Positions 16,866 to 54,693 of a stretch of DNA of 54,693 nucleotides are shown here, one piece after another; within the stretch, counting starts at the first letter, position 1, and every line of letters begins with the position of its first letter. The DNA is taken from assembly GCA_031267575.1 (NCBI GenBank), contig JAIRYN010000059.1:1-54693 (forward strand), read 5' to 3'. The stretch comes from Synergistaceae bacterium (GTDB lineage: Bacteria; Synergistota; Synergistia; Synergistales; Aminobacteriaceae). Position numbers and translations under genes: made by a program. Below the pieces are notes generated by a model. The model saw only the letters and a list, made by a program, of their open reading frames with translations, was not told the origin of the DNA and did no database searches.

Positions 16866-17805
16866 TTAGCCCTGTTGGCTCCAGTACTCCGCTCTCAGCA
16901 TATCCGCCGAGGCCAGAGGAGCTTGAAGGTGTTGTAGGGGAACGCTGCCTCCCACCAGCAGGTCGCCGTGTCCCAGAAGGTATTGCGCCTGCCCCACTCC
17001 CTCTCCCAGAATGATCTGGCTGTTGGCTTGGCTGGTCACCTTCAACGCAACGCGTAGTTGCAGATTCGCCTTATGCCTGTTACCACCTTGGCGTCGGGGC
17101 GCTGGGTCACCAGAATCAGGTGTATCCCGGCGGCTCGGCCAGATCCACCCAGAAGACCCTGCCGTCGATGTCCAAGCCTAGGAGAAACGTGGCTTCGGAT
17201 TTCGGGCGAGTCGGAGCGGCCATTTTCATCATATCGACCAAATCGACCAAACTCAGGGGTTGACGGACGCTTCGGGGCACGTCCACGCTGACATAATCGC
17301 TCTGTGCCTGAATCAGCGACGGAGAGGGTAAGGCAGAGGGTAAGGCAAGGGTGTAAACAGTTCGATTGAAATATGACTGAATCTATGTTAATATACATAA
17401 TTATGAATAAATTAGAGTAGTTGTCGCTATTGCTTCGGGAGTGGACGTGTCCGCAATGCGGCGTACATCGTGACCGAGACGTGAACGCAACGATCAATTT
17501 AAGAAATTACGCCGTGAGTTCCGCGGTGTTAGCTTGTGGAGAGGAAAGCTCTGGCCATCGTCACGAGATGGTGGTGAAACTGGCCTCAGTGAAGCAGGAA
17601 GTCAGCTTTGAATCTGTTTAGACAGATTTGAATGGGTCTGACGGAACGGCAACCTGTAGGTCCTATGAAACGTGGGCCTTTAATGTTCCTTTGCCTTCCA
17701 CGATCACGATGAGGCGATGCTGACGCAGCGCTTCCAGCAGTTGGGTTATGCGCTTTTGTCCTTTGCCTTGCTTTTGCCTTTTGTCTCGCGCCGTCTTCTC
17801 CTCAT
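16866..17805 (-). pseudogene. FtsK/SpoIIIE-like DNA translocase, decayed and interrupted by a tnpB remnant
   Basis: Pieces of one translocase are visible on the minus strand. The start region is 17805-17650: ATG, an Arg/Lys-rich stretch, then after a -1 frameshift KRITQLLEALRQHRLIVIVE. A pre-ATPase part lies at about 17330-17135 (YVSVDVPRSVRQPLSLVDLV; FLLGLDIDGRVFWVDLAEPP). The C-terminal RecA part is at about 17140-16866 (AAGIHLILVTQRPDAKVVTG; RVALKVTSQANSQIILGEG; LLGHGDLLVGG). The Walker A and B region, about 200 residues, is deleted between DLAEPP and AAGIHL. A second frameshift at about 17068 looks like one A lost from ATAAAGG. A tnpB remnant occupies 17.4-17.6 kb. It follows the nuclease gene at 1 bp, so it was the last gene of that operon. 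No ATPase activity is possible. Confidence 0.8.
17442..17628 (+). mobile_element. IS605-family tnpB 3' remnant with right-end hairpin
   Basis: The plus-strand codons encode a TnpB C-terminus: WTCPQCGVHRDRDVNATINL (the last zinc-finger CxxC and the HDRD-x-NA motif of the RuvC-like nuclease), then a tail ending VKQEVSFESV at 17621. The N-terminal nine-tenths of tnpB are missing. A perfect inverted repeat AATCTGT/ACAGATT (17611-17628) overlaps the stop and is typical of IS200/IS605 right ends. It is inserted inside the FtsK-like gene, in opposite orientation. Confidence 0.8.
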
Positions 17806-38246: not shown

Positions 38247-38470
38247 TTGACATACTCCCACAACTAAAGTCATGGGATTCTAAGATCGACAAAGACAGCC
38301 GACTGAAACCGGTCTTACGTCTTCTCCTTACGTCTTTTCCTTTAAGAGTGGATGCCCCCACTCTGAGAATATTTACAGCCGCATTAATATCCCGGTCGTG
38401 TTCCGCCCCACATCTCGCGTTGATAAGCCATAAAAGGAGTTTAACATAAAAGTAGATATATGGCAAGAAA
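38247..38470 (-). mobile_element. IS605-type remnant, copy B (tnpB 3' end + right-end hairpin)
   Basis: Inverted counterpart of 36608-36830. On the minus strand it encodes LINARCGAEHDRDINAAVNI, then LRVGASTLKGKD, and ends in the hairpin CCCATGACTTTAGTTGTGGG (38259-38278 as seen on the minus strand). It differs from copy A by a few substitutions and by a different tandem duplication (AAGACGTAAGGAG repeated instead of CTTAAAGGAGA), so the two duplicated independently after the copies formed. Its right end faces rubrerythrin, 32 bp from the start codon, so it may supply or disrupt upstream signals of that gene. Confidence 0.8.
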
Positions 38471-41586: not shown

Positions 41587-41926
41587 AACGATCTTGTTAG
41601 GGAGGTATCGGGGGGCCAGTGAGGCTGCTTTTGGCCGATAAGCAGAAAGCCAGCGACGAAGGAGCTGTGCGAATCGCTTAGTTTCTTCATCAACGGGCTC
41701 CGCCTTCCCTGAATCAACGGGCTCCGCCCTCCCTGAACCAACGGGCTCCGCCCTCCCTAAATCAACGGGCTCCGCCTTCCCTGAACCAACGGGCTCCGCC
41801 CTTCCCTGAACCAACGGGCTCCGCCTTCCCTAAATCAACGGGCTCCGCCTTCTCTGAATCAACGGGCTCCGCCCTCCCTGAACCAACGGGCTCCGCCCTC
41901 CTGAGCTTGAACAATTACCGATCTTT
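41587..41926. repeat. 24-bp minisatellite (about 9 copies) downstream of hldE
   Basis: From about 41692 to 41905 a 24-bp unit (AACGGGCTCCGCCCTCCCTGA plus three bases, with variants CTTCCC and TAAATC) repeats about nine times; one copy is 25 bp. Each unit can form a small GGGC/GCCC stem. The unit has no stop in one minus-strand frame (GKAEPVDS-type octapeptides), but the 25-bp copy breaks that frame. Between hldE and the array there is no clear gene. The repeats end 22 bp before the larE stop and could influence termination or mRNA stability of the convergent genes. Confidence 0.85.
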
Positions 41927-43117: not shown

Positions 43118-44098
43118 TCATCTGATCGACTCTCTCCTTTTTGCGTTGGCTTTATCAAATTCAATCCATTCCTCAACAGAACGATACATGACATTATCTA
43201 ACCGCTCAATAGCCCATTCGTTATATTCAAAATTATTATCACAACCAATCCATTTTCTACCTAACTGCTCGGCGACAACTAAGGTGGTTCCAGATCCGGA
43301 AAAAGGGTCCAGTACAACGTCGAAAGGATTCGATGATGCCAACAAAATTTTCCTAAGAAGTTCTTCTGGCTTTTGTGTTGGATGATTTGTTTTTTCTGGC
43401 ATCCCATTACAGATTGTGGGTATCTCAAAAACGTCTTTCGGTTTCGCTCCCATAGGGTGCGGCCTCCACAAAGTTGTGGTTTTGCGTCCATTTCCGTATT
43501 GGCTCGTTTCAGCCTGCGGGTGTGACGGGTATTTTAATGTGTGTGCCCCGTATGGAATCCGAACATCGTCAACATTCATTTTATAGTTTTTAGACTTGCG
43601 AAGGTGCAATATACTTTCATGGGAACGTCCCCAATCATTTCCCATATTTGCTTTGTTTTTATAAGACCAAATAAGCCATTTACAACCCGCGAAATACTTC
43701 ATGGCGGGATGCTTGATATCGGCAAGGATCTCGCTAAAACCACAAACATATAATGATCCGGCAGGCTTCAAAATACGAGAGGCTTCTTTAATCCATTGTA
43801 TTGACCAAGCAATGTATTCTTCCTGTGAATCAAATTTATCCCAATCGGCTTTCTTGATGTTATATGGCGGATCGGCAAATAACACATCGATAGATTCATC
43901 ATAAATTGTTTTTAGCCAACTAACGCTATTGTGAGTAAAAAGCAAACCGTTTCGATGGCTATAGGTTGGCAATATAATCTCATATGAAGTTTTGCCGAAT
44001 ATATCTCTATATAGCGTCGATTCAGCAGCCGGAATGACATAGTCATTTGTCATTTTTAAAACCATCTTCTGAACATTACTTCTTGTTTTAACTGGCAT
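43118..44098 (-). CDS. Beta-class DNA methyltransferase (N6-adenine/N4-cytosine), orphan
   Basis: The 326 aa have the catalytic DPPYNIKKADWDKF (motif IV, near residue 76) before the SAM-binding DPFSGSGTTLVVAEQLGRKW (motif I, near 265), i.e. the beta-class order. NHPTQKPEELLRKIL (motif X) is just ahead of motif I. Substrate sequence cannot be read. ATG 44098 has GGGGGG upstream; the preceding in-frame ATG has poorer spacing. No restriction endonuclease gene adjoins, so this is an orphan. A 9-bp tandem array lies just upstream (44163-44233). Confidence 0.9.
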   Translation of the reverse strand: MPVKTRSNVQKMVLKMTNDYVIPAAESTLYRDIFGKTSYEIILPTYSHRNGLLFTHNSVSWLKTIYDESIDVLFADPPYNIKKADWDKFDSQEEYIAWSIQWIKEASRILKPAGSLYVCGFSEILADIKHPAMKYFAGCKWLIWSYKNKANMGNDWGRSHESILHLRKSKNYKMNVDDVRIPYGAHTLKYPSHPQAETSQYGNGRKTTTLWRPHPMGAKPKDVFEIPTICNGMPEKTNHPTQKPEELLRKILLASSNPFDVVLDPFSGSGTTLVVAEQLGRKWIGCDNNFEYNEWAIERLDNVMYRSVEEWIEFDKANAKRRESIR

Positions 44099-44162: not shown

Positions 44163-44233
44163 CGGACTCAACGGACTCAACGGACGGACTCAACGGACTC
44201 AACGGACGGACTCAACGGACTCAACGGACTCAA
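44163..44233. repeat. 9-bp tandem repeat (GGACTCAAC) upstream of the methyltransferase
   Basis: Seven to eight GGACTCAAC units, in pairs separated by an extra GGAC, fill most of the gap between the divergent methyltransferase and lipid-methyltransferase genes. Another 170 bp up to 44507 hold no gene. The repeats would lie in the promoter or leader region of the methyltransferase, so copy-number change could alter its expression. Confidence 0.85.
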
Positions 44234-53804: not shown

Positions 53805-53846
53805 AAATTCCCGGCGTGTATTGAATGCCTCACCGGGAATTTTCTG
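53805..53846 (+). terminator. Rho-independent terminator after the QueG-like gene
   Basis: AAATTCCCGG (53805-53814) pairs with CCGGGAATTT (53833-53842), with T-rich sequence after it. Three copies of CTGAATAATTYGAT follow at 53844-53883. It ends the sulfur operon transcript and stands between this and the minus-strand gene fragment. Confidence 0.75.
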
Positions 53847-53953
53847 AATAATTTGATCTGAATAATTCGATCTGAATAATTCGACTGGACATTTTCCCTG
53901 ACGCTTGACACATCTGCTACAAGGGAAGGTTTTCTAAGACCAAGGAATACCGT

Positions 53954-54105
53954 TTAAATTTGGTTCAGGATATTCAATAACGGTTGAATCTCGCTGGTTA
54001 TACGCAGTCGAACCGCGCTTTTATCCAGGCCAACGTCCTCTCCCCTTTCGGTCAAAACACCTTTTTTCCTGAGTTCGCTATACAAGTCGCCACCGATGCA
54101 AAAAC
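53954..54105 (-). pseudogene. 3' end of a gene cut by an IS605/IStron-type insertion (aminotransferase-like?)
   Basis: On the minus strand about 48 codons ending at 53954 read CIGGDLYSELRKKGVLTERG then LDKSAVRLRITSEIQPLLNI. This has the flavour of the C-terminal small domain of a class I/II (histidinol-phosphate type) aminotransferase, but the identification is weak. The preceding DNA (54106 on) is the end of the IStron remnant. The 5' part of the gene should lie beyond the right window edge. If the intron still spliced, this would be the downstream exon. Otherwise it is a broken gene. Confidence 0.4.
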
Positions 54106-54145
54106 GTTATAATTCCTAAGGCTTAAATTCGAGCACACCGAAAAA

Positions 54146-54362
54146 CTACATAAAAATACTCCGCTTTCCATTCTGAGAATTCGTCTGAGAATTCGTCTTA
54201 AAACTCGTCTTAGAACTCGTCTTAGAACTCGGAAAGAATCTATCGGTTATCACTAACTTGATTCCTCTTCGTTCTGCTTGATAAGTCAGTTCTTGCCTGA
54301 ACTCATAAAGATTCTGCTCTGCTATAGCTCTTGATAGATGTTTATTTTCATCATTTCCGCGT
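54146..54362 (-). pseudogene. tnpB internal fragment within the IStron remnant
   Basis: Codons on the minus strand read NKHLSRAIAEQNLYEFRQEL, then TYQAERRGIKLVITDRFFPS then SKT. This matches the TnpB stretch after the first catalytic region, up to the PSSKTCS zinc-finger motif; the expected CS-x-CG is replaced by repeats of KTSS/TNSQ type, then a stop at 54146. Upstream of 54385 stop codons close the frame, so the N-terminal two-thirds are absent. Non-functional as a nuclease. Confidence 0.7.
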
Positions 54363-54407
54363 GCTGCTCGAATTGTTAAGTTTTACTAAAACATTTGGAA
54401 CTACTTC

Positions 54408-54693
54408 GTCTTTTGCATGTTCAAAGAAGTTCGCTACTCTTCTCCGGTTCTAAGAGCTTTCACTCATGAACTCCTCATACTTTCGTATGAGCGCAGACTA
54501 TATCTTCATCTCTGCAAATTTATAAATCTATAAATTCATAAATCTATAAACAGAGAGCCTACCTTTTCGGGACACTTATCCCTACTCCCTTCCGGGATAG
54601 TCGTTGAACGTTCTCCTTGTTCGGAGCTTCGCTGCTGAAGACCCATTGTTAAAGTGTTTAGAGTTACCTCGTGCACCATCTCGAAGATTTTTT
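54408..54693 (-). ncRNA. Group IA (td-like) self-splicing intron core, partial
   Basis: The minus strand contains AACGACTATCCC (P7 5' strand) and GATATAGTCTGC (P7 3' strand): GACTAT at 54602-54597 pairs with ATAGTC at 54501-54496. Between them lie GGGAGTAGGG, AAGTGTCCCGAAAAGGTAG (the P7.1/P7.2/P3' area) and P8 CTCTG/CAGAG with an AT-rich loop. P9 CTCATAC-GAAA-GTATGAG (54474-54491) follows. P5/P6-like stems (CTTC/GAAG; CTCC/GGAG) precede P7. The order and many positions match the phage T4 td intron from memory. The end TTTGAACATG near 54418 resembles the td 3' terminus. P1/P2 and the 5' splice site lie outside the window. Confidence 0.8.

Follow-up and report, generated by a model that had tools for sequence, protein, structure and literature searches.

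An IStron split by a contig end

The window analysed here (54,693 nucleotides) is contig C59 of the genome G000 (2.76 Mb, 76 contigs) from end to end, and its last base, 54693, lies inside a repeated mobile intron whose 3′ part makes up the final 601 bases on the minus strand. Judging from sequence, this element is very probably a group B (BcISt1-like) IStron of which the window has the 3′ half. It interrupts an aminotransferase gene of a member of the Synergistota, where it follows the GG of ..CCCAGAGG; an assembly break divides it, its P3-P9 core is intact, and it is presumably able to splice. Along the minus strand of C59, the 3′ part of the element precedes 46 codons of another reading frame, which stops at 53954. 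The features are as follows.

54474..54693, minus strand: group IA2 intron core, 3′ part (P5a region to P9); Rfam RF00028, model R1 and covariation in alignment A1
on contig C27: intron 5′ part (P1, P2, P3 5′ strand, P4 5′ strand)
54597..54602, minus strand: P7 5′ strand, GACTAT (guanosine-binding helix)
54569..54596, minus strand: hairpins P7.1 and P7.2, characteristic of class IA2 (class feature from Tourasse et al. 2014, PMC4227781)
54558..54563, minus strand: P3 3′ strand, GGTAGG, whose partner CTTATT is on contig C27
about 54551-54555 and 54510-54514, minus strand: arms of P8
54496..54501, minus strand: P7 3′ strand, ATAGTC
54474..54491, minus strand: P9 hairpin CTCATAC-GAAA-GTATGAG with GAAA cap (Rfam)
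54417..54474, minus strand: P9.1/P9.2 region with the GAACAT motif at its end; the IS part of IStrons sits here
54361..54374, minus strand: inverted repeat, left arm (AATTCGAGCAGCAC), flanking the former ORF region
54230..54358, minus strand: tnpB remnant that corresponds to residues 316-358 of the intact C30 TnpB
54126..54138, minus strand: inverted repeat, right arm (GTGTGCTCGAATT)
54093..54116, minus strand: element 3′ end ..GGAATTATAACGTTTTTGCATCGG, with the predicted 3′ splice site after the final G at 54093
53954..54092, minus strand: 3′ exon, comprising the final 46 codons (the first split with the 5′ exon) and the stop of a HisC-like PLP aminotransferase

From the junction, the 3′ exon frame runs through 46 codons (53957-54094) to a stop at 53954-53956; an earlier note on this DNA had given about 48 codons of this unrelated frame, ending at 53954. 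The TnpB fragment that it reported was recovered by tblastn with the intact C30 TnpB (54230-54358, minus strand, 67% identity, E 1.7e-16) and by a Pfam PF07282 match at 54197-54307. This remnant lies 3′ of the GAACAT motif, the place equivalent to that occupied by the intact tnpB in C30, and the inverted repeat around the ORF region is about 13 bp long and of mixed composition.

Short tandem duplications with units of 9-24 bases are frequent in the window (41689-41901, 44163-44233, 53843-53884, 54172-54231 and many others) and are also found inside the IStron loops and the C30 tnpB (SSKRSSKRSSKR, SRVHSRVHSRVH); they are perhaps a replication-slippage trait of this genome.

The ribozyme core

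The group IA core with P7, P8 and a GAAA-capped P9 that had been read from the minus strand was borne out, each helix being located within an Rfam RF00028 (Intron_gpI) match at 54474-54693 (minus strand; E 2.3e-9) whose 46.7 bits stay below the gathering score of 50, its 5′ side being cut by the contig end. Model R1, built from 18 relatives with the window sequence itself included, gives this sequence 146.5 bits. Alignment A1 covers P3-P9 in 19 sequences, taken from Synergistota, Firmicutes and a single MAG with the label Kiritimatiellae, and has standard pairs in 98.0% of its 1170 cells. Both sides have changed in 264 cells; shuffling gave a mean of 77, and slid structures gave 22-47. Since these are related sequences, the shuffle count is not a probability, but the slid-structure control preserves relatedness. 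P3 is paired in all 19 sequences, four of its six pairs showing double changes; P4 does not vary and P7 hardly does. By sequence, the class IA2 core is intact from P3 to P9.

A candidate group II intron at 43120-43209 (minus strand) was set aside as probably chance or debris, its 26.2 bits in Rfam (E 0.12) falling under the gathering score of 40.

The missing 5′ half and the joined aminotransferase

The 5′ end of the element was found on contig C27, immediately downstream of 370 codons of a HisC-like PLP aminotransferase, and the 5′ exon anticipated for the N-terminal part of the same protein is therefore on that contig. Exact removal of GG|T...CGG| joins these 370 codons to the 46 codons of C59 in a single frame, ..VALLNPR followed by GGDLYSELRKKGVLTERGEDVGLDKSAVRLRITSEIQPLLNILNQI. 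The in silico join that had been proposed aligns across the junction to the histidinol-phosphate aminotransferase 3ffh, and an uninterrupted homologue in genome G019 is 52% identical over residues 334-414. Translation of the unspliced mRNA would end at a stop 7 codons inside the element. The two contigs overlap by 12 bases only, so the link depends mainly on protein continuity. The same start occurs on one other contig, at C4:1, but the 3′ flank there is unrelated. DNA resembling the element is present on several further contigs of this genome, mostly at contig ends, as expected if assembly breaks in a repeat.

The description of the locus as a td-like group I intron joined to tnpB debris and interrupting a gene in a diderm anaerobe agrees with the IA2 core, the remnant and the two-exon aminotransferase found here. 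Its reading as an IStron remnant holds in that the transposon protein is lost and the ribozyme kept; the intron itself is not truncated, since the whole-contig window breaks within the repeat and the remainder, with the 370 codons, is on C27.

IStron class and transposition genes

Group B IStrons have a target ending in GG, U as first base, a CGG end and an internal loop in P1 (Tourasse et al. 2014, PMC4227781), and RT-PCR showed for BcISt1 that splicing takes place after G, the U belonging to the intron (Tourasse et al. 2014, PMC4227781). As in BcISt1, the copies described here carry a class IA2 core with P7.1 and P7.2, begin with U outside the exon after a GG, end in CGG, have a predicted P1 in which an internal loop comes after the U-G pair, and place the IS gene (TnpB) after P9.2. 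They are also dispersed in unrelated genes, as is general for IStrons; C30 is the exception in its insertion site, following GC. An accessory group B trait, the long and very AU-rich repeat enclosing the ORF, is replaced by the short repeat of mixed composition, and TnpA is missing from every copy of the subfamily. Placing the U in the 5′ exon and ending the intron at the terminal G was tried and rejected: this leaves the exons one base out of frame, whereas removal of T...CGG restores an open frame in every gene copy.

The earlier note named CdISt1 of Clostridia as background on IStrons; membership in its group A was considered here and rejected. CdISt1 (group A) likewise combines an IA2 intron and TnpB in a single element and has degenerate IS parts, but its target is TTGAT and its end TCAG, and neither the T-rich pentanucleotide target nor the TCAG 3′ end of group A is present here. 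Nor is a ribozyme that has outlived its transposase as little described as the same note supposed: emetic B. cereus has BcISt1 copies that lack ORFs (Tourasse et al. 2014, PMC4227781), and CdISt1 variants with truncated IS parts retain splicing. Further differences from BcISt1 are the Synergistota host and the fact that one genome has ORF-less copies at several loci that are not orthologous.

A search for IS607 TnpA in the copies of this subfamily returned none, and the C30 TnpB scored below cut-off with both the IS200 (183.0 bits) and the IS607 (147.5 bits) models. The genome does encode IS607 serine transposases at other places, C9 and C73 among them. Two IStrons of the same Synergistota family, G027:C22 and G093:C125, share the IA2 core by model R1, but their ribozymes are more divergent (about 84-85 bits against 146.5 for the window, whose sequence entered the model) and both carry tnpA, an IS607 transposase (NF033518) located between intron and tnpB in the more distant IStron of G027; G093 also has a full-length tnpB frame.

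Copies of the element in the genome

At least seven copies of the element are present in G000. Five keep the ribozyme core: C59 (HisC-like), the end of C4 with C76 (HtrA/DegP), C15 with C25 (DHH-CBS-nucleotidyltransferase), C39 (EcfA) and the start of C4. Exact T...CGG removal leaves one ORF in the four verified gene copies (HisC-like, HtrA/DegP, DHH-CBS-nucleotidyltransferase and EcfA) and in the relative G004, all of which meet a stop after 0-7 codons of the element if read unspliced; the HtrA and EcfA joins align with solved homologues through the junction region. The predicted junctions are as follows.

HisC-like: ..AATCCCAGAGG/TGGCGACTTG..
HtrA: ..CCCAAGAGG/TCGAGATTAC..
DHH: ..CTAAAGG/ATTACTACGAC..
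EcfA: ..GATGGGG/CGCATAAAG..

The 5′ half of the copy at the start of C4 was not found in searches of the G000 contigs. This copy is followed by 19 codons and a stop overlapping the start of a deacetylase-like gene, and so it too probably interrupts a gene. The HtrA, DHH and C4-start copies are fully ORF-less, and none of the ribozyme-bearing copies has an intact tnpB.

The reverse is seen in C30 (L020 6854-8653, i.e., G000:C30:32858-34653), located between the recA stop and the next gene. It is the only copy with an intact tnpB, encoding a TnpB of 413 residues (NF040570, 190.9 bits) with RuvC-type motifs GID, IED and DRD and a zinc ribbon, and it lacks P4-P9 and most of the 3′ region. The C14 copy is a stub of about 40 bases at a gene's end, with no ribozyme. 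Ribozyme-bearing copies thus lie in genes in five of five cases (one of them by inference) and neither of the two copies outside genes has a ribozyme, a split with a chance of 1 in 21 that, with so few copies, is only suggestive.

About 100 bases of 3′ region retained by the ORF-less copies are likewise missing from C30; this stretch may encode the TnpB guide RNA, which those copies might supply in trans. Zinc-ribbon matches of TnpB number 31 in this genome, including 17436-17501, 38368-38415 and 54197-54307 in the window; nearly all are short fragments, C30 having the sole full-length open frame among them.

Predicted P1 and the joint change of guide and exon

A P1 with a U-G pair at the 5′ splice site, as the earlier note had sought, is predicted for each of the five gene copies tested. 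The final four bases of the exon and the first U of the element pair with GCCUU or GCCCU, and beyond the U-G pair lie an internal loop and an AU-rich extension. Three copies have a pairing probability of 0.8-0.98, those of EcfA and G004 one of 0.3-0.5; for the intergenic C30, prediction did not form a P1 of the gene-copy type. An exon A at position -3 goes with a guide U (AGG/GCCUU) in HisC, HtrA and DHH, and an exon G with a guide C (GGG/GCCCU) in EcfA, G004 and L156. The first guide fits 26% of GG sites in the window and the second 11.5%, so that the six fits out of six would arise by chance at about 3e-5 if insertion prefers nothing beyond GG.

That proviso matters, for the gene copies may fit the guide through a recombinase preference for RRGG targets and not through the survival of splicing-competent insertions. 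We regard this as a fair possibility, short of probable: IS607 elements owe their insertion after GG to the recombinase (Tourasse et al. 2014, PMC4227781), whereas C14 (AACGG) and C30 (GAGC) were inserted at sites outside the guide-matching motif and do not fit such a preference, and the guide varies among copies in step with the exon.

Proposed mechanism and alternatives

In the mechanism that we propose, transposition would have placed the element after GG within genes. P1 would form in the pre-mRNA between the guide GCCUU and the stretch made up of the exon end AGAGG and the first U of the element, a guanosine bound by P7 would attack after the GG, and the freed exon would attack after the terminal G of ..CAUCGG, joining the exons without a scar. 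The interrupted aminotransferase gene would in this way continue to yield enzyme, and loss of tnpB would leave splicing unaffected. The ribozyme is probably kept by selection acting on the host genes and would decay where the element interrupts no gene. The C59 copy encodes no transposition protein and would be movable only in trans, for example by one of the IS607 serine transposases encoded elsewhere.

It could instead be argued that the element is dead, its fold kept only through recent insertion, the intron non-splicing and the aminotransferase a pseudogene. The decayed tnpB and 3′ region of C59 suit such a reading, and splicing is a prediction, but the gene copies are up to 9% apart within their close subfamily, and about 35% for EcfA, with core helices still paired; all exons are still open, and both copies outside genes have lost the ribozyme. 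We therefore consider a dead element improbable. An ordinary homing-type group I intron with no transposon history would share the IA2 class, and related genomes seem to have plain IA2 introns in loci that resemble prophages (L212, L213). The dispersed copies and the termini that they share already contradict such an origin, several similar copies being found at unrelated sites and genes of G000, after GG in the verified gene copies and with a CGG end; the location of tnpB within the element, from P9.2 towards the 3′ end, also speaks against it, and we attach practically no probability to it.

With the IStron reading retained, one may speculate further that the intron-transposon partnership has split in this genome, with transposon-free ribozyme copies selected in genes and a ribozyme-less tnpB copy outside, the ribozyme-only copies spreading MITE-like via unrelated IS607 transposases in trans and persisting only where the exon pairs with the guide. 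Taken as a whole, this scenario is tentative and rather doubtful.

Distribution and significance

Model R1 found the core in eight of the 188 Synergistota genomes searched, in three genera of one family. The loci resembling IStrons are those of G004 (same family as the window genome), G027, G093:C125, L210 and L211, the last two with TnpB-like frames, while L212 and L213 resemble plain introns and lie in phage- or prophage-like regions of related genomes. Contig C155 of G004 matches BNVH01000155 of Synergistales bacterium MS502-76 letter for letter, which places the host of the window in Synergistota.

Among the matches listed, the goat-rumen Desulfovibrionaceae MAGs RGIG3727 and RGIG3607 have many LsISt1-like IA2 introns, most without an adjoining transposase or TnpB frame (L039, L040, L043, L049, L052, L061, L066, L072, L080, L106, L109, L110, L132 and L147). 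If the bins are clean, these would add a further phylum with multicopy, mostly ORF-less elements. Many Patescibacteria pattern matches, again among those listed, are followed by apparent 23S rRNA exon sequence, a different setting.

In a 2014 survey, Firmicutes and Fusobacteria were the only groups with IStrons (Tourasse et al. 2014, PMC4227781), and our literature search, which may not cover later surveys, returned no paper on IStrons in Synergistota. The element is of a known kind, ORF-less IStrons having been described before; what it adds is a wider host range, extended to Synergistota relative to that survey. The explicit predicted exon junctions make splicing of several host mRNAs testable. 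The most interesting part of the finding is the complementary losses between copies: with several copies in this one genome, in and out of genes, they provide a natural experiment on ribozyme retention.
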